Shown in pieces: positions 1 to 25,679 of a stretch of 64,000 nt of DNA. This DNA comes from Styela clava (lineage: Eukaryota > Chordata > Ascidiacea > Stolidobranchia > Styelidae): the NCBI RefSeq assembly GCF_964204865.1, contig NC_135256.1, positions 22,286,703 to 22,350,702 on the forward strand, written 5' to 3'. Position numbers and translations under genes: made by a program. The notes under the pieces were generated by a model, which saw only the letters and a program-made list of their open reading frames with translations, had not been told where the DNA came from and searched no databases. Each line of letters begins with the position of its first letter. Within the stretch, counting starts at the first letter, position 1.

Positions 1-1600
1 TACGATGAAAAGAGACTATATATTATTCGAAAATCAGCCGAAAATGTATTCGAATATTTGATTCGTTTTGGACAATCCTATTTACGAACCACAGTCTTCT
101 TTTCTACAATACAACAATAATTTTCGACCCAATTCTTTAAAAAGGTTCGCCATTCCTGCTAGACTAACCCATCAAATTGCGTGTTCCCTGACTACTACAT
201 GAAACATTAGCGTTTTCTGACCATCAAATGTTTGAGATTGTTTTGTAAAGTTCTAAAACAATTAGATTGAAACTTTTCAGTTGCAGATTAGTAGTAATTT
301 GACTCCAGTGTAAATGTCGAATATTCAGGGAAGTATTTCACTAGCTTTATTTCGCTAAATGTCCGTACAATTATAGAGACCCTGCTCAGCGCAGAATGTT
401 TTCAAAACATTTCGCCTATAAGTTTTTGAAAGTATAATTTCATTTGATTTCAATTGAAAATCTAGAAAGGCTTTTTTTATCTTATACTCACCAGAACAAA
501 TATTACAATCATTAGATATGAATATGGAACGTATTACTAGCTCAAAATTAATCCCTCATCAAACGCATTTGAACGCGAAATAACGGTGCACGAAACTACG
601 CCAGTTATAAGCACTATTAAATATTAAACAATGCGGATATATATAGCACCAAGGTCTAACCCACTTTATTCCAAACAGCACGGAAAATTTGTCGCAAATG
701 CGTCTTTCCTTGGAATTCAATTGCAACAGAGAACAAGACTTGCGTTACACGTAACACATTAATTTATAAGTTGCTCCTTCGCTATCCAGTAAGACATGGG
801 TTGGATTCTGTACCAGGTAATGGTAATTATGTTCCTCAAGAAGTAAAGCATGCAAGAAGATTCCTAAAAAGTCAAACTAGTCTTCGACATTTTCTCTCTG
901 AAAAACGATAAAATGGATGAATTTGGTGGTTTCCAACATTTTGTGTTGAAATCTTCTATTAGTTGGTTTTTGAACTGTTTATACCAAAATCCCTATGTTT
1001 AATTACCTTGCCTTTTGTAGATTCTTTGCCAGTGTTATACAAAAGTCGCATTTTCATTTTTACGCAGTTCAAATAGTTTGTCGCGTTTTCATGAATAATA
1101 TTATACAAAAGTGAGTAATACTACAACGTATATTCCTATTGAAAGACTCTCCTCTAGATAGGAATTCACCCAATATCATAAAAATCATTTTATAGCATAA
1201 TATATCGAACACATCTTTACATCAAAAGGTTATATTCAAATTATAAAACCAATTAACTTCGAAAGAAATTTTGAGAATTGAAATTAACGAAACACGGAGA
1301 ATGAACTCTTCATGCAGTGTGAGCGTGAATTATGCCAAAAATATTTTAAAGCAAAACAGGATTCTTCTACATATATACTTGAGCAATTTAAAATATTTGT
1401 AATTGAAAAGAATTGTTTAATAACAGTATTTGGAATAGAAATATCGCAGGCTTCGGGGTGGTGTAAAAAATTGTAGGGACAATAATACCAGGGAAAAATT
1501 GAAATTTCCATGACGAAAGAGATAAAACATATGACCTCATAAATGATGGCACGATCCACAATGCTATGCCAGCCAATGCAGACCTCTTGAAATATGCGCA
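1..1600. other. Intergenic, no gene recognised
   Basis: AT-rich sequence with frequent stops on both strands. The short open frames near 1284-1675 on the minus strand carry no recognisable domain and run into a repeat, so they are not called genes. Nothing else could be supported here. Confidence 0.5.
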
Positions 1601-1619
1601 ACAAGCTGGCGCATAACCT

Positions 1620-1690
1620 GAACTCAGGTTGTGTACCAGGTTAGGGTTCAGGTGGTGCGACATCTTGGTGCGCATACTTCAGGAGTACCC
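1620..1690. mobile_element. Truncated right half of the YY1/TTAGGG-motif MITE
   Basis: This stretch matches the right-hand part of the full copies at 20988-21224 and 42042-42277: an inner TTAGGG-like segment, then an ATCTTGG motif, then the terminal segment ending near GCATACTTCAGGAGTACC. The left arm is missing or too diverged to see. No target duplication could be found, so this is a degraded copy. Confidence 0.5.
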
Positions 1691-1924
1691 AAAACTTGAT
1701 GAGAGAAACGTAATAATATATCAAACATTAAAAGATTGTATTAAAATTATTAATCAGAAAAATATAAAAAAAATGTTCAAGACTTGATGAGAAAAATGTA
1801 ATAATATATAAAACATTAAAATTAATCATAAAATAAAGACACGATGGACAATACCTTTCAAATGAATTTCAAAATGTGAAACACTGATCAGATTAGTTCC
1901 TTAAATTTGACAATGTTCGTTTCC

Positions 1925-2795
1925 AAATCTGACACGCATTTCGCCATCCTTAACATGACACCCGTCAACCCACTGCCCTATTTCCCCTCCTTAATCTGAC
2001 ACGCATCGACCATATTTCATCATCTCTAACCTGACAGGAATCGACCATATTTCGCCACCCCCAATTTGACACGCTTCGTCCGCATTTCGCCATCCCTAAT
2101 CTGTCACGCTTCGACCGTATTTTGCCATCCCTAACCTGCCACGCTTCGACCGTATTTCGGCATCCCTAATCTGCCACCACGCTTCGACCGCATTTTGCCA
2201 TCCCTAATCTGCCACGTTTCGACCGTATTTCGCCATCCCTAATCTGCCACCACGCTTCGACCGCATTTTGCCATCCCTAATCTGCCACCACGCTTTGACC
2301 GCATTTTGCCATCCCTAATCTGCCACGCTTCGACCGCATTTCGCCATCCCTAATCTGCCACGCTTCGACCCCATTTCGCCATCCCATTTTGACACTCATC
2401 GAGTGTCGTTTTCCAAGCCCGAATTTGACAGGTACTAATCCATTTCATCAGCCCCAAATCTAAACACTTTGGCCATATTTCTTTGTAATTTTGAGGCAAT
2501 TGTTTATTGTTATCTGTATACTAAACAGCGCATTATGACAGTCGATTTGGCAAAAACTGACAGCCATCGACCGCATTTTGCCATCCCTAATCTGCCACCA
2601 CGCTTCGACCGCATTTTGCCATCCCTAATCTGCCACCATTCGACCGTATTTCGCCATCCCTAATCTGCCACGCTTCGACCGCATTTTGCCATCCCCAATT
2701 TGTCTTTTCGTCCCTATTTCGCCATCCCTAATCTGCCACCTTTCGACCGTATTTCGCCATCCCTATTTTGCCATCCCCAATATGACTTTTATGCT
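1925..2795. repeat. Minisatellite array, ~35-38 bp unit
   Basis: About twenty imperfect head-to-tail units are visible. Each contains TTCGACCGCATTT, then TGCCATCCCTAATCTGCCA, with an optional extra CCA that makes the unit 38 rather than 35 bp. The array is most regular at 2081-2395 and again at 2565-2765. A more unique stretch near 2465-2560 separates the two blocks. Unit drift is strongest at the left edge (from about 1925), where words such as TTTGACA replace CTGCCA. The open frames across it (2469-2663 and 2686-2997 on the plus strand) are by-products of the repeat. Confidence 0.9.
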
Positions 2796-3143
2796 ACCAA
2801 CCCTCCTCAGTGAAACAGCCACCTTTCCATCTCCCATTACAATAAGAGTCTTCGTGCAGTTGCAGGCATACCAGTACCCGTTAACCGCATTGAGGTGGTT
2901 AACCGCCGTCGCATGGCGAGTGGTCCATGGCGAGGAGGGCCATTATAGAATTAAGCCATCATACAGTTTTTCCTCTCCTCGAGGCTACTATCAGTAGCAA
3001 CAACAGGAGGGAAAATTGAAAATCCCAACTTATCGAACGTACGGTCAGAAGGTACAGTACCGTACCGGTAGAACCAACATCGATGCAGGGAGAACCAAAG
3101 CGTATATATAATATAAGCGAATCAACGCTCAGACATGAACGCC
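2796..3143. other. Spacer between minisatellite and LINE
   Basis: No gene or recognised element was seen here. The sequence leads directly into the short tandem tail of the LINE that begins at 3144. Confidence 0.4.
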
Positions 3144-5990
3144 ATCAGTAATCAGTAATCAGTAATTTATTTTATCACCAAGAAATACACACTGTACATA
3201 CAGAACGAGATAAGAAAAGAGAGGAAAATAATGCATTTCAGGGTGAAAGGGGACGCGATAAACCAGCATTGGTTATCGAGCAACGACACCTATGAATAGT
3301 CTAACATTGGGTTATACAAGAACAAAAATCGAACTAAATACAGTACTAAAGTGAGGAGTCGGACGCCAAAATACTAACATTGGCAGAAATATGTTTAAAA
3401 AGACCGGATATTTCCGGACTCACTAAGCAAACGACTCCGAACGCCGACTGGCAGATAACCATGACAACTAGTCTACGGCACAAATACGTCTAAGTGACTG
3501 GAGCACCATATTGCAAGCTGAGTTGGACGGTACCGGCACTGTGCTGATGCATGGTTCATAAAGGCTGGGGACGAATTTGTACACGAGGATAATATGAAGA
3601 GAGAAAAAAGAATAAAATGTATCTACAGGTTTGGGCAACGGATTAAGAGATCACTAAACCAGGTAATTGCATTGAGTTACATTACTTACAAATAGTCATT
3701 TTGTGTGGCATAAATATAACTAATTTCAGAATTTTAAATCACAACGGTTTTGAAGTGCGATCGAATAGGTCATGTAGAATATAGAAATCATTGATTAAAA
3801 AAATGTATATAGTCTACACAACTGTTCAACAGTTCAATAGGACGGTTCATGCAGAATTTATGTCAATAAATTACATAAATTTAAAGTCACAGCAGTACAA
3901 TAGCCTACTATGATAAAGCAATTCATGCAGAATATATAAGTCACTCAATTATAAAAATGGAAAATTCACAGAATTACAAACATATAAAATAAATATACTA
4001 ATAGTATGGGTCAGTCGGACAGCTGATTAACATAATCCCATTTTGGCCTAGACTGTGCTGTCAAATCTACTGGAACCAGAATCCTGGCATATGCTGGCTC
4101 TAATTTTTGAGACATTTTGTTTTTTGAAAAAGCGTAAATGTACCTCCACATATATCTGTGAGGGCATAAGTGAGTCAGTATATTAACAATATATATCAAT
4201 AAAAGTATTTTAAGTAGATATCCGAAAAATTTGCCAAATAAACATTGATAATTCCATTTATTAAGAATAGTAAAATGTTCATTACAGGTTACTTGGACTC
4301 GAGGACTGTGGATCAAGTCGAGTAAACTCATTGTATGATCAAGTAATCCTGGAGAATTCACTTTGCAAATTCAACTGGACCGGTAGGTGGAAATCATGAG
4401 TTTTTTATACTCTATTTTGAAAGTGGCATAAGAAGAATCACGTAGGGTTTGGGGTAGGTTATTCCAAATTCGCACACCTATGAATTTGATGGACTTTTGG
4501 GATTTGGCAAGTGAGAAGCGAGGAACAAAGTAGTTTTGCCTTGTTGAAGAACGAGTGTTATGTTCATGCACTGAACTTAGCGAGACAAAATAATTGTCAA
4601 AAGCTGCTGGTAATTGATTGTTTTGAAATTGATGCATAATTTTTGAGATTTCTAGTTTATGGATGTCAGTCAATTTAAGCACTCTAGTTTTATGGTATGA
4701 ATAATTTAAATTCGAACGATATGGACTGAGTTGTAGAGCCCCAAGCAGCTATGGCATATTGTATATGAGATTGAAAAAGTGCAAAGTAAACGGTTCTCAA
4801 GGTGGAATTTTGTAAATAATTTTTTAGCTTTCCTAAAATCCCTACGGATCTTGACAGTTTTCTATGGATTTCAGTGGTGTGTGTATTCCATTTTAACTGA
4901 CTATCAATGTGGAGCCCAAGATATTTATAAGACGAGACTATTTCCAATTCGGAGCCTTTAATTTTTATTGAAAAATTCATATGTCTAATGCGAGAGTTTG
5001 GACTGAATAACATGACTTTAGATTTATCTATATTTACTGTAAGTTTATTGCATGTCATCCAGTCATGTATTTTATTTATTTCAGTGTTCACCTTATTTTG
5101 TAATGTGGTCAAATCTGTCGCACTGGCAAGCAGACAAGCGTCATCAGCAAATAATTTGCTCAAAAGATTTGAGCTGTTAGATAAGTCATTTATGAAATTC
5201 AGAAACGCAAGAGGTCCAAGTACAGATCCTTGCACAATTCCACAATGAATGGGCATCATTGGAGATCTATTGGAACCCAATTCAACATATTGGAATCTAT
5301 TGGCCAGGTAATCACATAGTAATTTGCCCGCGGTACCTCTGAAACCGTAATGTGCTAACTTATGAGTAAGGATACTGTGATTCACTGTATCGAAAGCTTT
5401 TTTAAGATCTAAAAAAGTGCAGCAGACGAACTCGCCTTTGTCTATTTTATCATAAATGTATGAAGTAACGTCAAGAATAGCATGACTTGTTGAGTGACTA
5501 GTCTGAAATCCAAATTGACTTTTGTCGATTAGGTTAAATTTGGTACAAAAACTGATCATTCTAGTATGCAATAATTTTTCCAAAATAATGCCAATAGAAG
5601 ATAAGACAGAAATTGGTCTATAATTTGAGGGATTATTTTTGTTGCCATTTTTAAATATTGGTATAACTCTGGCTATCTTTAAAGACGAAGGAAATATTCC
5701 TAAACGGAAAGAATTATTGAATAAAAGACTTAGTGCTGGTGAAATAATATCACCAACTATTTTCAGGAAGTAAGAGGAGATGCCATCGTGACCAACTGCT
5801 TTGCCCTTTTTCAGATTCTTAATGGTATGAAAAACTTCCGATGGTGTTGTTTGCTCGAGGAAAAAAGAATTCTTCAGAGGAGTACCCAAGAATTCCATAA
5901 AAGATTTTGAGCTATATGGGATTTTGTCTGCAAGCTTCTTTCCTATAGTCGAGAAGAATTTGTGCTTCTTGTGTGCCATCTTTGTGCCAT
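3144..5990 (-). mobile_element. 5'-truncated non-LTR retrotransposon (CR1/L2-like LINE)
   Basis: The element reads on the minus strand, from its truncated 5' end near 5990 to a 3' end at 3144. The 3' end is a short tandem of a heptamer (TCAGTAA on the plus strand, three units, 3147-3167), as CR1/L2-type LINEs often have instead of poly(A). A ~1.2 kb 3' UTR follows the coding part. Relics of this UTR recur at 7600-7690, 31134-31470 and 41225-41470, which identifies the family boundary. No endonuclease domain is present, so the copy is 5' truncated. The clade assignment rests on the C-terminal tail and the tandem 3' end and is tentative. Confidence 0.85.
4371..5979 (-). pseudogene. LINE reverse transcriptase, frameshifted, lacking endonuclease
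   Basis: The first open part (5979-4690, 429 codons) is a reverse transcriptase. Seen in order are NYRPISVLS near residue 120, LKKAFDTVNH near 195, VQGSVLGP near 250 and the catalytic FADD near 278. It is followed by the usual thumb (YKYLGLHID). The frame breaks just after AAWGST at about 4740-4690, where sequence present in related proteins also appears to be deleted. It resumes in another frame with KTRVLKLTDIHKLEI (4682-4371) and ends with the family-typical motif IWNNLPQTLRD. The N-terminal endonuclease is absent. The copy cannot encode an intact ORF2 protein. The plus-strand open frames at 4779-5248 are shadows. Confidence 0.9.
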
Positions 5991-6885
5991 CTTGTGCTTA
6001 TTGTTCTCGGCAATTTAACACGGCGCCTTATGAGAAGTTCCAACACAATTATTGAAACATACCTAATATTTTCACTAATAGTTTAGGTAGAAAAATTTTG
6101 AAGGTCGCGTTTTGAAGTAGAATCTTGGCCGAACATGGTTATATCCTTTCATGTTGGCCAAATTACATTTATAGTACATTAAATTGTTTGTGAAGACAAG
6201 TTATACCGGTTCCGAGTTGCTTCCGAAGTAAATTAGCCATTCTAATCGTCATAATTAACCATTTGACAATGGCGTTCCTTATGACGTCACAGATGAAAAG
6301 TTGTATTTATTTGTCGAAATTACCGGCCAACCCAACTTTGCTTCAATGGCCGTTTCTATTTTCTGATTAACATACTTCGTCTGTCAAGCTCAATAATGCC
6401 CTACTGCTCAGCTCCAAGCTGCGCTAGAAGAACAAATGATATTGTAGGATTGTTGCGGAGACATTTTACAGCCTCAAATTGGCGTATCACTCTCAAATCT
6501 TTAAAAAAATGACCAAAAATGGTTCTACGCTTTGTTTGTGGTCAAATTTAACACATTAGATAGTTTTTTGTTCCTAATTGCGTTATATATTTAGATAGCA
6601 TATATCTTGAAGTTCAAAATCCACCCTTCGGTTTCATTCTAGCCTTTATAACAGCGGACTTATTCGATTCGGTACAACAACACGACGAAAATTTCCCATA
6701 AGACTCCATTGTTTCGCATTCCCCAAATATGGCACAAGATGGCGTCTATGAACTTGCATACCATTAGGCAAGTTGTTAGCCGGCCGTTGGGGAGAACAAC
6801 AACAAGAAACAAACATTATTACGACGTGCTATCTAGTGGATGTTTGCCGAGGTCATGCCTTCCAAAGTGAAGACATTAGGGTATA
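5991..6885. other. Intergenic, nothing recognised
   Basis: Short direct repeats of a GTGCCATCTT word adjoin the LINE truncation point (5975-6000). Otherwise no coding, RNA or element signature was seen. Confidence 0.4.
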
Positions 6886-6889
6886 CTGT

Positions 6890-7090
6890 GGTGTAGGTCA
6901 TAGGATTTGCATATTTATCCCGGGGGAGAAGAAAGCCGTTGAGAAAGCTTAGCCATATGGCGAACCACGGCCTCTCGCACTTACCATTCCATGCCGGGTA
7001 TGGCATTAGCTAGTTTTTTTTTTTTCAGAAGCATGGACTTGGTGACGGAGAAAGCCCTAACCGACCCGCGCTTAGCAGGATTATCCACAC
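6890..7090 (-). mobile_element. SINE body (copy of the family at 14962-15262)
   Basis: This matches the non-tRNA body of the SINE at 14962-15262 and 37622-37847. Shared words include TTTATCCCGGGGGAGAAG at the tail side, ATGGCGAACCACG, GTTAGC-like sequence and AAGCATGGACTTGG. It reads on the minus strand with the tail at about 6890. The tRNA-like head is not recognisable, so the copy is 5' truncated or diverged. Confidence 0.6.
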
Positions 7091-7599
7091 CGCCGCACCA
7101 CTGTGATGCCTTCGGCGTATTTCCATGAACGCAAATGACGCATTGAATTCAATCCGTTTATTACACCTTATCTCATATCCTTATAAACAGACACAGATTT
7201 TTTCTATTAAGTGCTTCAAATGAGGGAATGTTCTCAAATACTATTTTGTGACGGACACTCTCAGATCTATAAATGCACCGTTTACCCACTTTACATATAC
7301 TGTATGTAGAAATGAGAGTTTACCGATCTAACCAGTTTTTTGAGGAAGATATATAAAGCCTTTGGTTATTTTGAAATTGATTCCCGAGAAATACCGTGGT
7401 ATTTTTCGGTATCTTTTCTCGTGTTTGGATTTGTCATGTCGCTTTAAATTATATTCTTTCGTGACAGATATTACTTGAAAACACACCAGATACTGTGGTT
7501 AAACGTTTTTGTGGGTGAGAAAATACGTTTCCTCACAGTTCACCTCGGTCACGTTTTTACACTCATTGAATGATGAATTGTTATATTTGACTAATTTTG

Positions 7600-7690
7600 T
7601 TACTTGTACTCTACCCCCTCGTAGCGTAGGGGGCGCTGCTCGATAACCTTACTGGTTTATCGCGTCTACTTTCACACTAAAATTCATTTG
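7600..7690 (+). mobile_element. LINE 3' UTR relic
   Basis: The sequence CGCTGCTCGATAACC followed by CTGGTTTATCGCGT and CTTTCACACTAAAAT is the reverse complement of the LINE 3' UTR segment at 3235-3295. It is therefore a short diverged relic of that family in the opposite orientation. Confidence 0.5.
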
Positions 7691-9161
7691 TATATCTTTT
7701 CAAGTTTGTTTGAGTTGGGACTCTGAACCCAGTAAAAAAAAACTAGACCGTCTGACGTTAAGTCAGCTCTGCGGTTCGTTACTGATGTCACATGGCCAAC
7801 GCTTGAAAAGAGAGGAGTGTTTTTACCGAAAATAAAGGCACATAACGTCTCTCCAAATGAGGAGTTACTTGACGCGAGATTAAGGTACAATATTTAGTTA
7901 AAAAACGCGACCCAACTTGGTCCACAAAACAATCCATTCTCCTTTGTATCGATCACAGGACGTCATTCCCATATTGGCACTGTCGTGGCGTTTATAAATA
8001 CAACATTGAATTTTCGTGTTTCCAACCAGCATGAATCCCGACATCGGGATTAGGAAAAGAGCTATTTCCAGTTGATATAGTTTAAAAATAATTCAAAAAT
8101 ATTCTGCCAATAAATACAAATAGCTGCCAATGATTTACTGCATGCTAAAATTGTTCTGCGGGCCGTGGTTTGGACCACCCTGAGTTAGAGTATCCAAGCC
8201 AAACGTCTTACTCCGAATACATGAGCAAACAGATTTTTAGAATTGTACAAGATGTCATGTTCAAGTTAGGTAAATTAGTGAATACAATTTGCTTGCTGCT
8301 TACTAAGATTTGTGATGGTGTCATAAGTGTTTGTGGGTACCATGCGAGCACTCGTATATCAAGAAATCGATGACTGAAATGCGGAACGACATTCTAGATC
8401 ACTTTTTGGGCCGAATAATTCATCTTGCAACTCACCATCTAATTTTTGAATAGAATTAAAAAATGAAACACTTTAGCGACGCCGCTACCATGGAGGTTTT
8501 TTAGCTATGATATAATAGTGCCTAAAACTTGGGATTTTATTTGTTATCATTAAGCCGCCCAAAGTACGCCAGAATATAAATAATTTATTAAATCAAATTA
8601 CACGCATCTGAAGAATCTTTAAGCATGGATGTTTTTCGAAAATGGATTACTTTGTTTATTTCCCTAACACTATGCAATCAGCAATAAATCTACGATGACG
8701 TAATGATGGTAATTTATAAAGTCCCCCGGACAGATATTCAAACATGGTCAATCAAACTTTGGCTCGTTTTCGTGTTATTAGTCAGTTTTCAGCTGTGTTT
8801 CTATAAAATTAGTCGTAATTTAATTGTCATTATGTCTTCCTAAGAGCTTGAGTTTAGTCGCAGTAATCAAAAATTTGCGAGTGCAGTTGCAAGTATTTTG
8901 TGGCGTCTAGAACTGCCGCAAAATCATGGCTGGATTCCCAAACCACACAATTTCACTTCTTGTTTAGAAACATCATACACCAAACCGATCACCCCAGAAT
9001 CGTTGACATCAGAGGAATAGTTCTTTGCAAACATCGGAAAAATAAAATCGGATCCGCCATAACTTATTTTTTATCCAGAAAAATAGTATCCTGTAATAGT
9101 GCCTTGATATTCCCGTTGTAGAACTTATTTCTTCGTATTTCGTGATTGTACTGTAATTCTT
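7691..9161. other. Intergenic/3' flank of UNC93A-like gene
   Basis: No gene was recognised. A stretch at about 8690-8890 (containing CTCGTTTTCGTGTT and GTTTTCAGCTGTGTTTC) resembles 31590-31800 inside the nested hAT element. It is probably a relic of that family. The open frames at 8170-8373 and 8900-9121 have no domain signature. Confidence 0.35.
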
Positions 9162-12100
9162 TTATGGCAGTTTATCTCTGTTTAGAAGAACCTTTGCAAT
9201 TGACCAGCATAAAGTAGCGATTATGGTCAATGATATATTGATGTATATTTTCACACTGACACAAAGTGGAATACTCCAGGCAGTATTGATAACTATTCCC
9301 AGAAAGTGCAATAGCACTTGTATGGTAAACCCAGTGTCCTTATCTGGCGAATGAGCTGCCGTTACCACTGCAAATAAATGAATAAGTCGTTAAATTTACA
9401 CCCTTTGTTTATTTGTTGAACACGAAGAGAGACATAATTATGTATCGATTTGCTAAATTCTAGCAGCGTGGAAAACCGTTTTCTTCGCTACTAACTTATT
9501 AGTCGATTGCGAAAGTTCATGTTAAGGGTTTTGAATGCGACCGGTCAGTAGTATAAATATGAAGTTGTACTCACAGAATGAGATGTTACGTCTGATGCCA
9601 TGTGTAATTCCAAAAGTAACCGACAAAATGTATGAAACGAATTTAGTAGAAACTGTTGGTCTCCATAACAACGAACAAGTATAGTTGATCAAATCGTAAA
9701 CCAATCCCACAGTGAATATAACTGGTAAACCTATAGTCTTCGAATTTTTCGAAATAACTAGAGATGTTGCGAATGACATTATATCAACAATAGCAGTACA
9801 TATTCCAACCTTAAATTGATGCGTAACAGGTTATTTATTCAGTCACTATCAAATTTGTAGTACCACTTTGCATTAAATATGTGCACGTCAAAACTTATTT
9901 TATCACACATTGATGTTCGAAAAGTTATGTAAAACGGTCTTTCTTCAAAATTTGGCTGCGTTCGATAACAAATTGTTGCGTCTTACAAATAATTGGTAAC
10001 CATTTCAATTTTGACATCATTTACGTTGTGTCGTAATATTTTATTAGTCAATGTTCTGCATATTTTCATGCCGAACGGCGTCTCATTTCAAGAAATTTGA
10101 AGTAAAATATGCCACAAACCTTATCGACTCCAACAACGCAAGACACAAATGCCCTGTTATGTTCCGTCCAAATATACGCTATTGTTATACCGAATAGCAA
10201 CTTCACAGGCCAAGTCAAAAGTTCTTGCAAAGACATGGCATATTTGAATCTTTTTTTGATACTGGACAATAAATCGCTACTTTCATCTGTTAGCAATGGC
10301 TGTGTCATCGATGGAATGTTCTCTACTGAAAAACAAAACGAAATCCGCGCTGCCGTATAATTAATTTACAAGCAGATTTTGATTTACATCAGTTTTATTA
10401 TATTACGTTACTGCTCGTTGCTTACTTATTTGCGTAAGTAAACCTCGGATGGATTTTTCTGAGATTTTCTCTCCGGGAAAATTTCAAATACAAACATACA
10501 AGAACCTTGTATATTCACACACTAATTTTTCGACTTGTTTTCGCAATCAAATCTAGTGCTAAAGTAAAAGGTTGCAGTTTTGAATCTTTCCTCTTCTGAA
10601 GTTAAAGCTTGACGACGATCGGTTTGGACAAAGCAACAAAACTCAAATATTATTTGAACAATATACCTTTTTAGCAACCCTTTCTATGGCCATGATTAAT
10701 TTAAAATACCCTGTTCAGTCGCATAGCTTGTGCCTTTAATAAAAAAGTAATGAATGGCAGCTCCAACAATATGCATCAAGACATGGACAACAAGTAGGGG
10801 AAGGTGGGGTACGTTGGGACATGGGGCACAGTGGAAAATCAGCTATTACACTGATACTATATCCGCAATCCTGTCCGCGGCTCGATGTTCCAATCCGCCC
10901 TTAGGTGAGTTACAACGTCCCCGCGTACGGACAACGGACGGGTAGAGCGGCGCAAGCTATGGGGTGAAATTGGTTTTGGGAGGTTGAAAAAAAAATTTCA
11001 CCGTTCCAGTTTTTTCTTTTTTTTAGTTTAGCCTTTCCAACGAGACAAACCATCGTTTGATATTCTTTAGCGTCAGCCCACTGTAAAATATTCCTAACGT
11101 TAGCGAGTGGCTGTGCCTTCCGAATTTTGCCGTGGGATGGTCTGAAAATATTTGTTTCCTATGGGGAACAATGGACCGGGGTTCAGTGGGACATGCTCTA
11201 CAGGGCACAATTCGACAGTGTTTGATACAATAAGTGCTTAGAGACTTAGAGATGCGTTATATTTTGTGTAATATAATGGTTTCTTTCGACCCATGGCCCA
11301 ATATGGAATATATTCCAGAATCAATAATATTTCCAGATTTAGATTCGAGGAAGGAAATAATCAAATTTTTTTGCAAAATGTTTTGTCAAAATATCTGAAC
11401 TATTTCAGTTGAACATTGATTTTGAAAATATTAAATCTTCAAATTCGAAGTCTCCCCGTACTTTAGACGATTATGCTGATTAATTGCTTATTTTTAAGGG
11501 CATACTTCGTTGAATTTTGACAGACTGACCCATTGTGCCCCAGGGTCTGTCCGATTGTGCCCCACAAGTGGGGTACAGTGGGACACTTGACAGACGTTTT
11601 TCAAAGCATTTTGGTAGTAAGATGTGTGTCGCAAGGGAATTTCTTTGTTGCTGAATAAAAACTACATTTACCCCTCTATGCATTAGTCCCGCAAACTTAA
11701 GAGAATATGCAGAATTAACGGCTCAAAATATGCAAAAGAAAAAAAGTGTCCCAACCTTCCCCACTTTCCCCTAGAACCTGTAGCAATGTTTGATCCGGTA
11801 TCAGCACGGAAAATTTGCCAGACGTCTTACGAAATGAGTACTCAATCTAAAAAATTGTTTAAATCAATGCCACGTTCAGGTGTAAATCTGGAAAATTGTC
11901 AATAGCCACACAGAACTATAAAAACCAACCATTTTGTTACGCGTTGAAAAAGGCTGTGCAAGTTTTTACACTGTTGTTTACAATAAGAACTAAAATCTAC
12001 AATATAATAATATGATAATACGCAATTACTAAATAAGCATTGATATATATTTGCCTAGATGAAGACAACAACTCTGTGATTTTGTCGACAAAGTGAAAAA

Positions 12101-15100
12101 TGTCAACAGCAAACGCAACGAATAATAAATCTCAAATGGGAGTTCAAAACAACTTTTTATGCCAGGAGAGTTGTTTCGATTTAGTGACCGTATGGTCCTT
12201 CCAACCTCCTATCAATTCCGTTGTTAGTCGATTTATTCTTCTTTTACCTATCGAATGTTGTTGTTTGTGTTTGATTTATTGGCTAATGACTGGATGATGA
12301 ATAAACTTCTATCTATCTATCTATCATGACAAGGCGTATTACAGCATTATAATACATTCGTGTAATCGGAGAACATGGGTCATTCCATCGAAACACCTAA
12401 AAAATTTGAGACTACTCACCGGACAATCCCTCGCCCCGCATGTCAACAGGTGGTCAGACGTTATATTATACGAAAGAAAAGTACTGCTGTGATTTGAGCC
12501 CCCATCAACAAAGTTACCAATGTATCGTGCAATGTTATTCCAGTCAAGTATCATTTGCGTCACAATATTTGTGAATACCTGGTGTATAAGCGACCCGAAA
12601 TGTTAAAATACCTTTTTCTTCTGGCTGTGAAACTGCACAGAAAGATGGTGGATCAAATTTTGAAAGCATTATTCTCACATTTGCGGAAAATCTTTTAACT
12701 GATCAGAATTTTAATTATATAAGAATTTCTAATTATTTGTAATGGTAATATTGATAATCATCCAAATTCTGTCGTTAAACCTAACTTTTACAATGACCTA
12801 CTTGTGCCAGAGACAATATCGCAAGAAACATCCCAAAGTACTTTTGTGAAGATGAATCTACGTCTTGATGCATATCAGCATTGGATGCAATACTTTGAAT
12901 TATCACGGAACATCCAACCCAAGCACAGGACATTCCTATGCCAGCAAAGAATGCCGTAGAATACATTGTGTACCAAACTGAACAAAACAACATAGGGGAA
13001 AGTGGGGAAGGTTGGGACACTTTTTTTCTTTTGCATATTTTGAGCCGTTAGTTCTGCATATTATCTTAAGTTTGCGGGACTAATGCATAGAGGGGTAAAT
13101 GTAGTTTTTACTCAGCAACAAAGAAATTCCCTTGCGACATACATCTTACCACCAAAATGCTTTGAAAAACGTCTGTCAAGTGTCCCACTGTACCCCACTT
13201 GTGGGGCACAATCGGACAGACCCTGGGGCACAATGGGTCAGTCTGTCAAAATTCAACGAAGTATGTCCTTAAAAATAAGCAATTAATCAGCATAATCGTC
13301 TAAAGTACGGGGAGACTTCGGATTTGAAGATTTAATATTTTTAAAATCAATGTTCAACTGAAATAGTTCAGATATTTTGACAAAACATTTTGCAAAAAAA
13401 TTTGATTATTTCCTTCCTCGAATCTAAATCTGGAAATATTATTGATTCTCGAATATATTCCATATTGGGCCACGGGTCGAAAGAAACCATTATATTACAC
13501 AAAATATAACGCATCTCTAAGTCTCTAAGCACTTATTGTATCAAACACTGTCGAATTGTGCCCTGTAGAGCATGTCCCACTGAACCCCGGTCCATTGTTC
13601 CCCATAGGAAACAAATATTTTCAGACCATCCCACGGCAAAATTCGGAAGGCACAGCCACTCGCTAACGTTAGGAATATTTTACAGTGGACTGCCGCTAAA
13701 GAATATCAGACGATGGTTTGTCTCGTTGGAAAGGCTAAACTAAAAAAAAGAAAAAACTGCAACGGTGAAATTTTTTTTTCAACCTCCCAAAACCAATTTC
13801 ACCCCATAGCTTGCGCCGCTCTACCCGTCCGTTGTCCGTTCGCGGGGACGTTGTAACTCACCGAAGGGCGGATTGGAACATTGAGCCGCGGACAGGATTG
13901 CGGATATAGTATCAGTGTGATAGCTGATTTTCCACTGTGCCCCATGTCCCAACGTACCCCACCTTCCCCTACTGTATATATTAATCCTTATTATTGAACG
14001 GTTATAAATTCACTGACGAACGACATAACGCGACCTAAATTCTCGATTTATACGCAGGCTGCAAGCAAGGTTTGTTCGAGTCCCGGTAGAAGACATTTAA
14101 TAAGTTGATTTATAATCAAAGAAAGCATTGCACATATCGGCTAAAACATTGAATTCGGTTGCAATGGTCGAGAATTTGACAGCACTAGCATTTATTTTAT
14201 TAAATCCACGTTTTATTCAATGCCGTATCCACCAAAAATGGCGCCCGTGGTGAAGTTTAAAAATGCGCCCTTTTGATCGATGACTGAAAATTTATAACGA
14301 CTGCTGTTGAATTGAGATACATGTACGCTTTTATTTAAGTAAAAATCTGAGTTTTAATCATTTCCAATTTTAAATTATTTTAATGGAACATTTTACGAAT
14401 AAAACTTTTGCGACCTTTTCTAAAGTGCACCCATGACTGCCATACTTTAGATACGCTACTGGTTGCATTTAAATCAAACAATCCAATGTGAGAAGGAGAA
14501 GGCCAAGTTATGATAAACGCAAAACCTTCGATTCATAGCTCAAAACTAAGTTTTTTTCAACACAAACCTTCAGGTTTTTGCGCCAACTTATCAGGGCTTT
14601 CGATATTTACCGCGTGGTGTTTGTGAAACGACCGCTTGTTACAGATGCTAAATGATAGGGTACACAAGATAGATTAAAAATGACCAGTATAATTTTTATT
14701 TTTACTGAACATGGCGAATAATACCGCCTCATACCTGACATTGGTATGATCCATTGGTAATTTGATCAACACTCATCTGTAATTAAGCACGAAGTGTACA
14801 TATTGGATGGATCATATCAATCTCAGGTATGATGCATCAACATTCACCATTTTCATGTTCATTAAAAATATATCGTTTTGTTATTATTATGTTGTTGTTG
14901 TTGCTGGTATTTTTCTTCTTATCGTTATAAAAAAAATCGCCTTACTCATTAAATACTGGACCACGATTATCTATTTATCCCGAAGGAGAGGAAAACCGCT
15001 TATACGGCTCAATCATGAGGCGAACCACGTTCTCTTGTCCGGTTACCAGTTCATGTCGGGTTTGATATTAGTTAGCCAGTTATTTGTTTCGGAAGCATGG

Positions 15101-16026
15101 ACTTGATGATAGAGGAAGCCGTAACTGACCAGCGGTTACGTGAACCACCCTACGACGAGGAGGAGTACAGTAATTCTCCCGCACATAAACACCCCACACG
15201 GGATTCGAACCTGCGAACCCATTCAGAGCAATTAGAGATGCTCTTCTTAACTCTTGGCACAATAAAATTTTCAGTGATTAAAGATTGTAGTTTTCGCCAG
15301 AAGGCTATTACTTTTATTTATCTCAAAACTTTCTGTGGGCTCTAGCGATTCATTTTTCACTTTCAAATTTTGTGTGATGACCTCTTCAAAATTAATGAAA
15401 ATCATTTGTAGCGGTTCTGTGACCACTATCGTTCTACGCGGAAGTCGGAAGTTTTATGACCGTTCCGAACAGCAGATTAAATAAGTTACTGCATAAGGTA
15501 AGACAGACTACTGCTTCTCTTTGGCCCCTTTATCCTTATATTTCAGCATCGATTCAAGTTCTGATATCGATTTAGAAATAGAAGGTAGCCAGCAGCTCTC
15601 CGATATCATATAACCTACCTGGGTAAAAATTTGCCAAAGTTACGAAAATATTGAGTATTACTCCAATAATCAGAGCAACTTTCGGTCCATATCTTTGGAG
15701 TACAACAGGTACGACAATCAAGCTTCCAATGATTGCAGCTGTGGTTTTGACAAGAAGAGAGTTTGTGCCGATTCCACCTTTAACGTTCATGCTACTCTGT
15801 AAAGCCGCCAGACCTGAATAATATTTTTATTATATAATAAGTAGAAAATGTAGATGAATCACCATATATACTTCACTTCACAACTGTTTCGAAATTTACA
15901 AACTGTCAATATTATTATTTCTCTCTCACCGTTATCTGCTCCAATGGCGATGGCAAACCCTAATGCACACGGATAAAAGTTTCGTTCACTTCCAAATTCA
16001 TTTTTACCGGAGTTGTTTATCTTCAT
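9162..16026 (-). CDS. unc93a: UNC93A-like major facilitator transporter, 8 exons, exon 5 split by a transposon
   Basis: Minus-strand exons: 16026-15930, 15813-15619, 12977-12802, 12578-12420, exon 5 as 11777-11774 plus one TA plus 10794-10710, then 10325-10120, 9809-9575 and 9367-9162. Omitting the 975-bp insertion gives 1365 nt, 454 residues, and every phase agrees. UNC93A proteins are polytopic MFS-fold membrane proteins of about this length whose substrate is poorly defined. Family signatures seen are GLAALQSSMN (family GLQNLQSSL), NFYP-WYTMYSTAFFAGIGM, the extracellular TCGARDC motif, YIWTEHNRAFVSC, GITHGIRRN and a last helix beginning HFLGIVINTAW. A good acceptor at 16090 and an open frame up to 16089 suggest an upstream exon or 5' UTR. 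Exon 5 carries a transposon six bases after its acceptor, so the allele may be inactive. Skipping exon 5 would join exon 4 to a TAG. UNC93A itself versus an invertebrate paralogue cannot be separated here. Confidence 0.85.
10797..11771 (+). mobile_element. 975-bp TA-flanked TIR element, copy A (in UNC93A-like exon 5)
   Basis: Flanked by TA at 10795-10796 and 11772-11773. The ends are imperfect inverted repeats of about 25 bp: GGGGAAGGTGGGGTACGTTG on the left and, reading inward from the right, GGGGAAAGTGGGGAAGGTTG. The body contains no long open frame (the 61- and 67-codon frames on the minus strand are also present in copy B), so it is non-autonomous. A TA duplication is typical of Tc1/mariner and pogo elements, but no transposase is present to assign it. 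Copy B at 12995-13969 has the same length, lies in inverted orientation and is nearly identical. Confidence 0.9.
12307..12325. repeat. (TCTA)n microsatellite
   Basis: Four to five TCTA units lie in intron 4 of the UNC93A-like gene. They are preceded by GACTGGATGATGAATAAAC, which resembles the 3' end of a retroposed element. The parent element was not identified. Confidence 0.6.
12995..13969 (-). mobile_element. 975-bp TA-flanked TIR element, copy B (intron 2)
   Basis: This is the reverse complement of copy A with few substitutions and the same length, flanked by TA at 12993-12994 and 13970-13971. It lies in intron 2 of the UNC93A-like gene, and its edge is 15 bp upstream of the exon 3 acceptor AG. 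The original pyrimidine-rich tract (TGTTGTTTTGTTC) is retained, but the native branch-point region has been pushed about 1 kb away. It encodes no recognisable protein. Confidence 0.9.
14962..15262 (-). mobile_element. tRNA-derived SINE
   Basis: Read on the minus strand, the head (about 15262-15180) has an A-box-like segment TGCCAAGAGTTAAG and a clear B box, GGTTCGAATCC, spaced roughly as in a tRNA gene. The body follows, with GGTGGTTCACGTAACCGC, AAGTCCATGCTTCCG and ATGAACTGGTAACCGGAC, and the tail lies near 14962. The same body occurs at 6890-7090 and 37622-37847. It lies in intron 2 of the UNC93A-like gene. The open frames over it are not genes. Confidence 0.75.
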
Positions 16027-16121
16027 TTTGTATTTGCGTGGAAAACCTTTTTCAAGCTGGTGATGTAATGTATAATTGACTACATTTAGCTGGGAAAAAG
16101 AAAAAAAAAATACAAATTTGG

Positions 16122-16319
16122 GGTACTCACGAAGTATGTGAACCAAGATGGCGGAACGTTTCCAATTTTCCTTATTTTAGCTCAAGTAAGAGTTCGAGGA
16201 CTAGTCAAATGACTCCCGTAGTATTTGTACCTTCAATTATGGCCTAAGTAACCCTAACCTGGTATGCATACTACGCTCCGATGTCCGCCATATTGGTTCA
16301 CATACTTTGGGAGTATACC
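16122..16319. mobile_element. YY1/TTAGGG-motif MITE, diverged copy
   Basis: The inverted arms start GGTACTCACGAAGTATGTG on the left and end near CACATACTTTGGGAGTA on the right. An AAGATGGCGG motif lies on the left and its inverted counterpart GTCCGCCATATTGG on the right. The copy lies about 30 bp upstream of the splice acceptor of the first called UNC93A-like exon. No convincing 8-bp duplication is seen for this copy. Confidence 0.75.
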
Positions 16320-16529
16320 CAAACATGAGTAACACAGACATACTAACAAAAGAATGATCAATAAGATTTATTAATGAGGAGTTTAGGATTTCTCTGTCAA
16401 CACGGAGAACTACCGTATTTAATTTAATTTGGCACCGATGTGTTTCAGTTTACAAATATAATACACAAACAAAAAAGTCTGTGTGATTGCCGTCTCGTAA
16501 ACTTTGTAACAGCACAACACCGTATTTAA

Positions 16530-16735
16530 ACCTTTTCTAGTGAACTGCAGTGCGTATAACAAAGGGATACAAACACTTCAGCGGAGATGCTGCGATGATG
16601 GCATTGTTTTTCGAATCATAGCGATTTTTATAAATTCCATCAGTAGAAAACTATAGGCATATTGAAAGTTGGTTTCAATTTGTCCGGCGCATAGACTTAA
16701 ATTGGTAAAAGCACCTCATACTTTCATGCAATACA
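16530..16735 (+). mobile_element. LINE C-terminal relic (family of 25100-25380)
   Basis: The words CTAGTGAACTGCAGTGCGTAT, GCTGCGATGATGGCATTG and CTATAGGCATATTGAAAGTT, then TTGTCCGGCGCA, line up in order with the LINE tail at 25140-25360. The copy is too decayed to translate. Confidence 0.5.
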
Positions 16736-16814
16736 ACACCATATTTTAACAGACCTCACTTGTTCTTCACTAAGGATATAGAAACACGCGAACGTTAGTG
16801 CAAGAATGGTGACC

Positions 16815-17018
16815 GTACATTTGAACCCACGTACATTTGAGCCCATACATTTGCACCCGTATATCCGCGAGTTCATGAGGGTACTAAAATTCATGGGTTA
16901 GGGTCAGTATGGGTTCGAATATCCATAAAAAAACAAATTTCCATAGGTGCAATAGTATGCAGGTGCAATTTTCGTGGGTTCAAATTACGGGTTCAAATGT
17001 ACGTGGGTTCAAATGTAC
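16815..17018. mobile_element. ~204-bp inverted-repeat MITE
   Basis: The left end GTACATTTGAACCCACGTAC and right end GTACGTGGGTTCAAATGTAC are exact inverses, and a further GTTCAAAT copy lies next to the right arm. No target duplication could be confirmed. There is no coding capacity. Another copy was not seen in the window. Confidence 0.7.
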
Positions 17019-18259
17019 TGGAACCTGAAAGAATAAGTACAAGTTAACTGGCTGGCAGTCGTATGCAGTTCTGACTTAAAAGTCTAACCCGCTGACGGTA
17101 TAGCTAATATTCCAAGTATCTACACCAGCCACTATATTTAACCAGCCGTAATGGCTTTATAAATCAGTATCGATATTTAAAAAATATTCCGTTACCGCAA
17201 CCATGCAACAATAAATGTTCACCTGTCATATATGACAATATATATACCAACGTACGTTACTTATCGATTTATTTTACAGAAGAGGAAATAGAACTACGCA
17301 TCATTTCCTCCAACTTCAATATGAAGCAATTATGTCCTCATCATCATTAAATATAGTTATAGAACTTCATTGCAGATACGCTTCACTGATCTAATATCAT
17401 GAATGTATTTTTTTTTTGTGAAATATAAACAAATCCATGGATCAAAAGTCTGGAAACTCTTTTCAGATGTTCACCGGAATGCAAATTCCAAATGACGAGT
17501 CAAAAGCACGGGAAAGAAAGAATCATAGAAAAAAGAGATTTTGTATACGCATCATGTATTTCAAACATAAAATGATTCCTAATGTCAGGTTCAAACTCTA
17601 TACAACACCCATCCTCTATATGTTCAAACTCTATACGACACCATCCCCTATGTCGTATTGCAATGAATTATGTAGGCAAAGTCGACCCGGCTAGCTTGCG
17701 GTTTTATATACTGGGCGAGGGGTTGCTTTTTCGGTGTCAGCTACACAAAACGTGTACTTTCAATCAAGGCAGTATAATCGTAAATATATACTACTACTAG
17801 ATGTCCAACTCCGCTCGCCGTATAATAAACAAACAAAGGCGAAGTTGCACCTCCAAGTGGCGGGCGTCACGGTTGGTTTTGTTCAGACTAGATGCTTAAC
17901 GACGACGACGCTCCTGCATCACAGCTCGAAAACTAGCCCTGTTTATTGATGACTGATCGAAATATTTGCTGAAGGACGGAGAAATTCGATAAAAATGAAC
18001 AAATAATTGTGAAAATGAAGACACGGTCTGTCTTGCAAATGACCAGGATGATGTGACAACTTCCTTGTCGAAAGGAAGCAAGGCATCAAAAATGCGATGC
18101 ATTGCAAAAATGTCAGTCAGATGTAGGTAAAGTGGTGACGAAAATGAATACTTTGCACTTTATATAAAAAAAAAACGCTCAGTAGCACAGCATTTTGATC
18201 TCACTCCATCTCAAGTATTGTAGCTTTTACAGAAGTTTTTTCTCAACTTGACCTATAAT
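17019..18259. other. Intergenic, small tandem duplication only
   Basis: A ~35-bp direct duplication (GTTCAAACTCTATACRACAC) sits at 17590-17655. No gene was recognised, and the overlapping open frames at 17437-17949 are not supported by any domain. Confidence 0.4.
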
Positions 18260-18664
18260 CAGGGCTGCCACAACGTCCTTATTTTTAAAATTTGTCCTTA
18301 CTTTGAAGGTCTTTGTTTTAGGAAATGTTTTTGTCCTTATTTCTAAGAAACATCTTTATTTTGACGTGTGTCCTTATTTTTAACCTTATAAATGAATACA
18401 CCAGTAAATTAAACTTTGAATTTAGTTTAGATCTGGAACTTCATAAGTGATAAAATGAGTGAACGTAAAAAATTTGCTGTGATGATTATGAGAAAGAATT
18501 CAACGGCGTCGAACGAAATGAAGGGCCAGTGATTTGCGCACTGCAGCTTTTGTGAATGTGACAACAATCTGGAATGCATAGGTAGAGCAACAATGTCTGT
18601 TAATAATGCAACCCAGAAACACAAGGCTCTGCTCAAGAAATTAATCAAACCAATCTATAAATAA
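18260..18664 (+). pseudogene. hAT transposase N-terminal BED-finger relic
   Basis: A hAT-like terminus, CAGGGCTGCCACAACG, begins at 18260. From an ATG at 18455 one frame reads MSERKKFAVMIMRKNS, then a stop (TGA at 18530-18532), then a C-x2-C...H-type finger (CSFCECDNNLE ... NATQKHKALLKK) ending in TAA near 18664. This is the layout of the N-terminal BED-like zinc finger of hAT transposases. The catalytic part is absent, so it is a truncated relic. Confidence 0.5.
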
Positions 18665-19008
18665 CTTTTTTAAGAGTCGATTATTATACAAAGGCTATCT
18701 CAACACATGCAAGCAGCTGAAATTTATTTCCATCATCACATCATTGAACATCCGACACTTGATATAAAAAAAAAATATTTTCAAATAATTCATGAGCGAA
18801 TACCTATTAAACAATGTAACTGAATGTCAAGATGTAACAACACTACTTGAGAAAGTATTCAAAACATTTGAGCAAATGTATACGCAACGTACTGCAGCCA
18901 AAATAATAACAACAAGATGGACAATAGGACTCATGGAATACGAAACCAATTGAAGAAACCCAGCAGCTATAACGAAGATTAAGATGTATGTGATTACAGT
19001 CAAGTTTC

Positions 19009-19124
19009 CGTACTCCTGAAGTATGCGTACCAAGAAAGGAGGACACTGAAACGTAGTATGTGTACCACGTTAGGGTTAGGCCAAAATGTCCTTATTTTAG
19101 TTCTATTACGAGTTCTGGAGTACC
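19009..19124. mobile_element. YY1/TTAGGG-motif MITE, internally deleted
   Basis: The left arm (CGTACTCCTGAAGTATGCGT), the inner TTAGGGTTAGG and the distal end GGAGTACC are present within about 115 bp. Flanking octamers CAAGTTTC and AAAGTTTT agree at six of eight positions, as expected for a decayed 8-bp target duplication. Most of the right arm is deleted. Confidence 0.65.
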
Positions 19125-20987
19125 AAAGTTTTTTTCTCAATAATCCATAGCAATACAAATTACCATTTTAATTACTAATGTGAATAAACACTGAATAGCA
19201 AGTTATATTAATAGTGGTATTGATGTTTTTTAAGGCTTTGGGAGTGGTTCTTAGCTGGAGTAAAAAGGCAATTTAGGTTCTATCACGTGGACATTGCTAC
19301 ATATTTCTTTTTCTTTGCTGCTTTTCAATCAACTGGAGCACCGATGGATTCCCAGCCCCGCGACCTGCAAAATATGCATCTTTTAAACTGAAAATCTTTT
19401 GCCGATTCCTTCAATATTTAGGGTGAGGCCCTACGGGCATAGCTGAAGATTTTGAAGGGGGGGAGGGGACTGAAATCTTTAATTGACAAGTTAGACCAAA
19501 ACACCTAGCAGGTCTGATCGCAAATGTTAGTTTATAATAGTCCCGATGGTCTAACTCTAAAAAGTGTTTCACGCCACGAAAAATTTATATGTATGATATA
19601 GTAGAACAATTTAGAAGACTTTTATCTCACACTTAAAGGACACTGACAGATGTTTTGTCTAATATGGCATATCACATGTTGAAGGTACCAGTATTTGAAG
19701 CCCTTCATACGCTGGAGAAGCAATGAAATGCTGTTGTTTTTTAAATATGACTACAGAATGTGTTGCATGTAGCTGTATAGCATTTATTTTGTTAAAAAAT
19801 CCTTGAGCTAATCACCTGTTGTAGACTGCCAGTGTGTAAAATAGTTTATGAAATTTTAGCTTATCTACTGCAGTCTTTTGTCTTCAGATGTTTCAGAGAG
19901 TAGTAGTAGATTTCCGTTTCTGAGGGAAGCCACGTCAGTAGTGCTGTTGCATATGTCAAAAAAAAGGTATTTTGCAGTTTGCAAAACTTGGCGTTGCTTC
20001 AAATTCAGACATCTCCGAAATCCTAGCAACAGATGCAGGAAGAACCTACAAAGAAAAATTTCCCCTGTTCATCTGTTATTAATGACCTGAATACTGTTGG
20101 TAATTTTAGAAAAAATAATCATGATCCAAGTATTTAAATGCTCAATAGAAGATAGATCTAATAGGAAAATAAAAAATAAATTAATACCCAAAACAATTCT
20201 TTGTGCTATACCTGTGCCCAATATTTAACAGACATTTTTATCAAGCTATTGAGTTAAACATGTTGGTCTGTTAGTTTACATGGCTGTTTCAAATGTTTTT
20301 TTAGACATATCTTCATAAATTCCCTCTAGATGTGTTTCCATGCCAAAACCCCATCTGGTGACAGCAAATCATTCTTCAAAAGTGAGTTTCGAGACGTCTG
20401 CAAAAATTTATATTTTAGTTACGATATTTTGAACTTAATTGCCCACAACGATTGAACCTTGTCTACCATCTAAGCATGTATGTGTTTATATATAAGTATA
20501 ACAGCCATTTCGACAAAGTATTATTTGAAACAAAAATATAAATACCCCACAAAACAAATTGGAATTAATAAAATGTAACGGTTCCAGGAGAAATATTAAT
20601 GCATTCAATAAATGTGGTGGATTTTGCAGTAGCAAAAAAGTTATTGCTATTGATCACAAATCAATAATTTAAAAACACTCGACAAAATAATTCAAAACTT
20701 TTTGGCACATCTAAAATTATAAATATACATATATGTTGAAGCCATGTTTAGATGATGGCAATAATAGGTATCCAATTTATGTGAAAAAGGTTATTAGTAC
20801 CAGCCTGAAATCAAGCAAAATGGATTATCATGACAAATGCAAAACACCTCTTATGTTGTAATATGCAGCTGGTGACTCCGTATACAATGACAGAATGAGT
20901 TTGGGAAAAAATTATCAAGATCAGTAGAACTCCATCATAAAACACTAATTAATTGAAGTTAAAATATGTGTGTTTAATTTATTTTTT
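19125..20987. other. Intergenic, nothing recognised
   Basis: AT-rich sequence without recognisable exons, RNA genes or elements. The open frame at 19878-20090 on the plus strand shows no domain. Confidence 0.4.
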
Positions 20988-21224
20988 GGTGCTCCCGAAG
21001 TATGCGAACCAAGATGGCGGACATCGGAACGTAACATGGGTAACAGGTTAGGGTTAGGCAATAATTTTTTTTCCAATTTTCCATATTTTAGTCCTATTAT
21101 CAGTACGAAGACTAGCCAAGAGCCTCCAGTAGTATTTATACCTAAAATTATGGCCTAACCCTAACCTAGTACACATATTACATTCCGATGTCCGCCATCT
21201 TGGTTCGCATACTTCGGGGGCCCC
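20988..21224. mobile_element. YY1/TTAGGG-motif MITE, full copy with perfect 8-bp duplication
   Basis: The element is flanked by TATTTTTT at 20980-20987 and 21225-21232. The terminal arms are about 80 bp (GGTGCTCCCGAAGTATGCG on the left, its inverse on the right). Inside each arm are AAGATGGCGGACATCGGAA and a TTAGGGTTAGG stretch. It is about 237 bp long with no coding capacity. An 8-bp duplication is known for hAT-type transposition, although the GG...CC termini are not the usual hAT CA...TG. Confidence 0.9.
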
Positions 21225-22115
21225 TATTTTTTTCATACAGACGTCACAATTTCAATCACCCATCAGTCAATTTATATTCTTGCATACTGCTTTGATCACA
21301 CAGCATAAATCCTCACACTGCCACTTTTTTATGATCCTAAAATACACATATCTCTTATCAAAATTTACATTTCTTGACTTCATTATTGTATTGGGTACCT
21401 ATAGGAACATTTACAACTTTTTTATGCTGAACAATCGTAGTACAAAGCGGCTCTCTACTAGACTACATCTACTCATGGGAGCTTTAAAGTGAATTTAAAA
21501 TCTTACTGTCAACGTGCTTTCGAGTGCTGAACCGGTCCTAGGGTCTTCCCACTCAATTGATTGTTCCTCTATTTTGTTTTGTAATCTGTATTCTATCAGT
21601 TCTATAGTCAAGTATATCGTGTAATATTCCATGTGCACAACTAACTTGAACATTTATAAGTCACTCACTTAATCTTGACGCGAGACAGCGCCGTCAGAAC
21701 ACAGAAAAATGCACGATGATTTTCGAAGCAATAATAATCTGTCAGAACCAAGTCAAGCGTGTCGGGAATTCAACATCGGGAGAAATTTCCGGAGTTACAC
21801 AGGGGTTGGTATAATACGTCTAGACTTTTTTTTTTCAATGTGAGAATCAGTGACAAATATTCCGAAGTTTGGGCGAAGTTTTGTTATAAAATGTTTGAAA
21901 ATTGAAAAGTGAGCCAAGGTAAAAATATAGGAAGGCAAATACAATAAGAGTGATAAGCAAAAAAAGGCGAGACATATGAGATGAGGGGAATGAATTTGTT
22001 TAGAAGTGAAAGCGGTCAAGCCGCTGTTAGAAGTGACACTGGTTACAAGGCATTCTAAGTTATTAAAAATATAAACACGCCAAACGAGCGCGTGCTGAGT
22101 GTAAATTTGCGTTGG
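21225..22115. other. Intergenic, nothing recognised
   Basis: No gene or element was recognised. The open frame 21795-22154 on the minus strand runs into the next MITE and has no domain. Confidence 0.35.
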
Positions 22116-22373
22116 TGAGGCTGGGCATTCCGAATCGAATAGTAAATTATTCAAATCAGTTCAGACGACAATTTCGAATCGGCGCAACAATTTTTTTCTG
22201 TGCGTCAAAAATCGAGGTGAATCCCCATATTTTTATTGAAGTCATGATTCTAACATATGACTCTTTCTAGTGAGTTATTGACAAAACGTGCTTTTTCACA
22301 TACAATTACAAGACTCGATTCGAAAAAAATATTCGTTTAGATTCCGAAAGGTATTCGAAAATGCCCACCCTTA
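22116..22373 (+). mobile_element. hAT-type MITE (same family as the outer element at 28250-33486)
   Basis: It begins GAGGCTGGGCATTCCGAATC and ends GTATTCGAAAATGCCCACCC. Over most of its length it parallels the split element at 28250-28523 and 33371-33486, for example AATAGTAAATTATTCAAATC and TCTAACATATGACT. It is shorter and has no convincing target duplication, so its exact ends are approximate. Confidence 0.75.
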
Positions 22374-23049
22374 TTGCTGGGAGTAATCTATTTGGTTCAG
22401 ATACTTGAAGTTGTGCTATACCGCTCGTAATCGGGTTTCTCAACTAGAAAGTATAAAGATGGGGGCACGCTGTTTAGACACCCGTACTTTCTATGCTGTG
22501 TGATACCGCAAGTATCATTTGGAACAAACTTTTATTCCGGGTATATTGTTATTCGGTTTTCAACACGGGCCCCACTTTTTATGCATTTCTGCTTTTACAG
22601 AAGTAAATCATTTTGACAAAAATACTTTTCATAGCGATAAAAACTATATTGTATTGAACTGTAAGTTCCTGAAAATGATCTGAACGATTCATTAAAGATG
22701 ATGATAATGACGTCCATATATGAAAATTTCCAATCTGTTGTATGAAAGCGACATTGGCAGTTAATATAGACATACGATATAGTCCCTATTGTCTGCGCCA
22801 GCGGAAGTAGGCTACTAAAAAACGGGAGCCCAACGCTTTGCGACTGGAAATCCCTGATGTACTTCCGAAAATTGTTAGTGCGTAGGCCTACTGTAAGGTT
22901 TTCCCCCAAAGCTATACTAGCAATCCGGATTGCCAGATATGTTGCTATCGACTCTCGCCTATGAAGTCTAATTTTGTCCCACTCTCATATTACTCATCGA
23001 CTAGTTAGTTGCACCGTTTTATTATGGTGGTTGGTTATCGTTTGTGTAA
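22374..23049. other. Intergenic, nothing recognised
   Basis: No coding or repeat signature was seen. The minus-strand open frames at 22579-22909 overlap in two frames without domain content. Confidence 0.35.
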
Positions 23050-23057
23050 GTGTAAGT

Positions 23058-25078: not shown

Positions 25079-25094
25079 AGATCTTGAAAACGTT

Positions 25095-25670: not shown

Positions 25671-25679
25671 ATTTTATTT

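Follow-up and report, generated by a model that had tools for sequence, protein, structure and literature searches.

Can a gene with a transposon inside one of its coding exons still yield an intact protein? The question is raised by a minus-strand gene in a 64,000-nucleotide stretch of the Styela clava genome (the window; all positions given here are positions within it), where a 975-bp element bounded by TA on both sides interrupts the fifth of eight exons. Null alleles are known to arise when a transposon lands in a coding exon, so that the case is ordinary in kind, although its arrangement is unusual, and the locus would provide a clean test of how the animal responds to a transposon that lies within a few bases of a splice site.

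A transporter-like gene and its interrupted exon

Scripted splicing of the minus strand, with the element and one TA removed, gave a gene of eight exons with GT-AG introns, agreeing phases and one open frame whose last codon is its sole stop. The exons measure 97 nt (exon 1, 15930–16026), 195 nt (exon 2, 15619–15813), 176 nt (exon 3, 12802–12977), 159 nt (exon 4, 12420–12578), 91 nt (exon 5), 206 nt (exon 6, 10120–10325), 235 nt (exon 7, 9575–9809) and 206 nt (exon 8, 9162–9367, which carries the stop codon), for a sum of 1365 nt. Exon 1 was recognized by three features, an ATG, a phase-1 GT donor and the length still lacking from the total; two candidates of the right length fitted in a search of 15830–30000, and the one at 16026–15930 was picked for its hydrophobic end and its nearness. 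In the version of exon 5 given in a preliminary description of the locus, the first 6 nt (GTTCTA) lie at 11772–11777 and the other 85 nt, which encode most of transmembrane helix 6, at 10710–10794 in the empty-site splice. Exon 6 opens with TAG, of which only the TA is read in phase. The remaining exons of the gene have neither stops nor frameshifts. A further UNC93-like gene was sought in the 64-kb window and none was found (next best match, E 4.0).

The element in exon 5 (c1; core at 10797–11771, minus strand) is bordered by the two copies of its target duplication, TA at 10795–10796 and TA at 11772–11773, and has imperfect terminal inverted repeats of the form GGGGAA.../...TTCCCC that extend over 27 nt at 89% identity with the TA counted. 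Its longest open stretch is 82 codons in 975 bp, with no long ORF, and 10696–10842, the sole element-overlapping stretch searched against Pfam, had no match. Two copies of the element are present in the window, both with TA on either side. An autonomous relative or transposase was sought with exact 25- and 21-base patterns, which had no matches in viral_contigs and genome_contigs, and Rfam returned none across the window. To judge by its TA flanks, inverted ends and lack of a transposase gene, c1 belongs to the MITE kind of non-autonomous DNA transposons that target TA. It resembles MITEs and other TA-duplicating non-autonomous transposons in being short, lacking a long ORF, having inverted ends and occurring as near-identical copies, but its inverted repeats are short and imperfect, and its 975 bp exceed the length of many MITEs. 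The TA duplication is common to both copies and Tc1/mariner-type transposons, a likeness that stops short of a superfamily assignment.

On the minus strand the flanks of c1 read CTACAG|GTTC-TA and TA-CTTGTTGTCC. Removal of the element and one TA joins them into a 91-nt exon that closes GAACAGG|GTATTT, and in a transcript the joined string GTTCTACTTG after the exon 4 junction would mark an empty allele. The sequence itself shows the insertion, its ends, the restored frame and the reading-frame result of each splice route tested. The preliminary description had reported a 975-bp TA-flanked element interrupting a coding exon, and the ends, flanks and restored frame were all reproduced; scripted removal likewise recovered the 91-nt exon with its donor, its acceptor, phases that agree with exons 4 and 6, and the 1365-nt frame. 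That description had also placed the break six bases after the acceptor. The break does fall within the exon, but both the six bases and the total of 1365 nt belong to one of four acceptor options: in-frame acceptors at 11777, 11825, 11840 and 11846 give frames of 1365, 1413, 1428 and 1434 nt, with the element 6, 54, 69 or 75 nt into exon 5 and inside the exon in all four versions. In UNC93A proteins a linker separates the CGA-DC motif from helix 6, which would speak for one of the longer exon 5 starts. Pfam was tried as a judge of the start and set aside, as the UNC-93 scores of the versions with other starts (20.4, 20.5 and 22.3 bits, compared with 21.5 bits for the 1365-nt version) gave no decision; a hand-typed near-scramble of the linker gave 19.6 bits.

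The region from exon 4 to exon 6 was surveyed for in-phase open cassettes 57 to 239 nt long, with a hydropathy window of 19 residues and a peak threshold of 1.6. At the empty site, 4 of 27 cassettes reach a peak of at least 1.6. The restored exon 5 is more than chance, because every one of these four hydrophobic cassettes is exon 5, each with its own start. With the element present, a strong hydrophobic peak is found in 1 of 71 cassettes, which is exon 5 entered via the element. An origin of helix 6 in another exon of intron 4 or 5 was rejected, with no such in-phase cassette of 57 to 239 nt found.

The 454-aa product scores 21.5 bits against the Pfam UNC-93 family (PF05978), below the gathering cut-off of 22.9, and 24.0 bits against MFS_1, for which the cut-off is 33.4. 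It has 11 hydropathy peaks of at least 1.0, of which the sixth is exon 5. In PDB, the N-terminal half matched the corresponding region of UNC93B1 (7c76_B) at 13.3 bits (E 0.4), with glycerol kinase ahead at E 0.23, and for the full product glycerol kinase alone was listed (E 0.59); NCBIfam gave nothing meaningful. On these profile scores the product is likely a divergent UNC-93/MFS protein that falls below the threshold for strict UNC-93 membership, and the earlier label "UNC93A-like" is plausible but weakly backed, with the family cut-offs missed. In the portion available of one account of UNC93A orthologs, these proteins are reported across animals, 12 helices are predicted for CG4928, their counterpart in Drosophila, and a comparable insertion is not mentioned (PMC7591606).

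Exon 5 itself was also compared with shuffled versions, of which four were made and three scored against Pfam. The three gave UNC-93 scores of 17.9, 19.2 and 19.4 bits, all below the native 21.5. The shuffle comparison mildly backs exon 5 as a genuine part of the gene. MFS_1 had no preference for it: the native version was the lowest, at 24.0 bits versus 24.7 to 25.4 across the variants.

Splice routes with the element in place

If exon 5 is skipped in the interrupted allele, exon 4 runs straight into TAG, and this immediate stop, which the preliminary description had pointed out, was reproduced in the spliced frame. If the acceptor at 11777 is used and followed by read-through into the element, 20 further codons precede a stop. 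The preliminary description had also raised the possibility that splicing removes the element as a new intron, and this did not hold as worded. The strings whose removal restores exon 5 exactly are TAGGGG...CCCC, AGGGG...CCCCT and GGGG...CCCCTA; none has the form GT/GC...AG, so neither a GT-AG nor a GC-AG intron can remove c1 exactly. For inexact removal, 1524, 1734, 1777 and 1820 GT/GC-AG pairs were tested for the respective exon starts and 1, 2, 2 and 2 of them keep the frame, every one through a single weak acceptor in c1, 10843|10842. Removal of sequence in two steps within the element was rejected as well, with 1 of 1524 pairs keeping the frame for the 1365-nt start, again with the acceptor at 10842.

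This acceptor (TAATAG|CTG; 10842–10843, minus strand) lies 47 nt inside the element and is the sole one found that rescues both the frame and helix 6. Its use would turn part of the element into exon, with exon 4 joined to the 48 nt that precede the remainder of exon 5, helix 6 kept, one Val swapped for LIFHCAPCPNVPHLP, and an open frame of 1407 nt; from the upstream starts (11846, 11840 and 11825), the donor at 11777 (CAG|GTTCTA) and the 10842 acceptor would instead define a new intron of 935 nt. Such exonization offers the single frame-keeping solution, remains open to the end and leaves the hydropathy of helix 6 almost the same (1.98 vs 2.02), and it has a precedent in Aureococcus introners that add four amino acids, as described in the part of that report available to us (PMC9860276). 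However, we consider it very unlikely. By a matrix whose very small training set comes from this gene alone (six acceptors, six donors), the acceptor scores −9.2 and ranks 67 of 76, with pyrimidines at 7 of 17 positions, whereas the gene's six other acceptors, each left out in turn, score −2.9 to 4.9; the exon 5 acceptor at 11777 scores −0.6 (rank 22). The resulting product has an UNC-93 score of 18.6 bits. The presence of a rescue acceptor also means little, because when the element was dinucleotide-shuffled 1000 times one arose in 524 cases. Branch-site motifs were without discrimination, as 6 of 6 matches were reached at 370 of 2000 random places.

The top acceptor of the intron 4 region lies in c1 too (TTTTACAG|TGG; 11080–11081, minus strand; score 14.2, rank 1). 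A transcript that passed from exon 4 to 11080 and left the element at 11002 for exon 6 would stay in frame, and its product would carry, where helix 6 should be, 26 element-encoded residues and the Val of the junction, with no early stop and a broken topology. This route has the top combined splice score, 19.7, among the 71 cassettes, and a CGCTAAC 20 nt 5′ of TTTTACAG also speaks for it. Nonetheless, the score derives from the six-site matrix, and frame-keeping cassettes are frequent (95), so that frame alone is no evidence. The encoded segment has no hydrophobic helix (peak 0.02), and the product would hardly be a working transporter. We therefore regard an element-derived replacement of helix 6 as quite improbable.

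The reading that we prefer, to which we assign a probability of about three in four, is an insertion of the MITE kind in the helix 6 exon that makes the assembled allele most likely a null or a strong hypomorph. A non-autonomous TA-targeting transposon would have landed in the helix 6 exon of a gene for a 12-helix MFS/UNC-93-like transporter, leaving an allele in which exon 5 could not be spliced whole. Splicing into exon 5, splicing to the stronger sites of the element, or skipping would yield a protein that ends after helix 5 or, with some in-frame cassettes, one without helix 6. Because exon 5 is not spliceable whole and these routes either end early or lose helix 6, we favor a loss or strong reduction of function. 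In support, the highest-ranked acceptor in the element yields products without helix 6, and the acceptor that would rescue the helix is near the bottom of the ranking. Against it stand the presence of one in-frame rescue route and the independence of the UNC-93 score from exon 5, as it climbs from 21.5 to 23.6 bits once the exon is deleted. Three points are ones that we infer: the use of the routes listed here by transcripts, a recent date for the insertion, and the existence of the empty site on other chromosomes. An annotated gene model at this locus would be called broken or be wrongly extended into the element.

A second copy and the inverted pair

The second copy (c2; 975-bp core at 12995–13969, plus strand) is TA-flanked, lies in intron 2 and is inverted relative to c1. 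The copies are identical at 957 of 975 positions, with no gaps, and 12 of their 18 differences are transitions. The preliminary description had called the allele a possible recent null. A null is compatible with the results given above, but as to recency, 18 differences from c2 in 975 positions cannot date the insertion of c1; they permit an old c1, in which case the intactness of the rest of the gene would need a reason. Between the core of c2 and exon 3 (12978–12994), 15 nt separate the TA of c2 from the first base of the exon, so that the expected position of the intron 2 branch site falls in c2 sequence. Both copies are near acceptors, and 17 of the 525 TA sites in the gene are equally close, a post hoc count for which two insertions prove no preference.

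Near-identical inverted copies 1219 nt apart are a known assembly trap, and the element in exon 5 could have been joined there from the other copy or another haplotype, with the true gene intact. However, like real insertions, each copy ends cleanly at TA and has flanks of its own, and we judge an artefact of this type to be highly improbable.

The pair (10795–11773 and 12993–13971; 98% identical) lies on either side of exons 3 and 4. For RNA of the minus strand between 13973 and 10795 the predicted fold is −2100 kcal/mol with 965 inter-copy pairs, all in register, compared with −897 kcal/mol for a control of the same length in which c2 was flipped. The predicted hairpin loop is 1219 nt long and contains exons 3 and 4, one strand of the stem comes within those same 15 nt of the exon 3 acceptor, and the break in exon 5 is on the opposite strand. 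The modeled hairpin suggests that circular RNA may form, that dsRNA may have effects, or that the locus may be genomically unstable. If the copies did act jointly in RNA, through a stem of ~965 pairs with exons 3 and 4 looped out, the gene would be a self-silencing hairpin gene and not a plain null. We think this unlikely. Were it true, it would favor a circle of exons 3 and 4 (335 nt), RNA editing or the production of small RNAs, and the second insertion would have made a harmless intronic copy part of a self-silencing hairpin. With the inverted pair around exons 3 and 4, circular RNA, dsRNA and splice-site capture can be tested at one locus. The inverted repeats that favor circular RNAs likewise bracket exons, and in the portion available of one report they facilitate back-splicing but in mammals are not sufficient for it (PMC4479058). 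The pair described here differs from them in having one repeat in an exon, and its circle is a prediction.

Related systems and other repeats in the window

DNA transposons that have inserted in exons and are partly removed again by splicing are already known. Rushforth and Anderson reportedly described in 1996 that Tc1 insertions in C. elegans are removed by cryptic splicing. Like Tc1, c1 targets TA, lies in a coding exon and may leave the pre-mRNA, but for c1 there is one weak in-frame route, on paper only. Introners, as far as the available part of their description goes, are also DNA elements in coding exons, and if the acceptor at 10842 were used c1 would share with them a 3′ splice site carried by the element (PMC9860276). 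In contrast to introners, c1 does not end at GT and AG, so that precise splicing is impossible, and no family of spliced copies of it is known.

The window contains several other repeats. A reverse transcriptase ORF of 435 codons at 4690–5997 on the minus strand (Pfam RVT_1, 99.1 bits) marks a LINE-like element. Pieces of a hAT-like transposase are found at 28938–32870, also on the minus strand, with Dimer_Tnp_hAT at 28938–29618 (40.3 bits) and DUF4371 at 32232–32870 (24.1 bits, below the cut-off). Similar ORF peptides (such as NPNLVHILHSDVRHLGSHTSGA) occur on both strands at 16237–16449, 21133–21492, 42005–42379 and other positions, and their recurrence suggests another dispersed repeat family.
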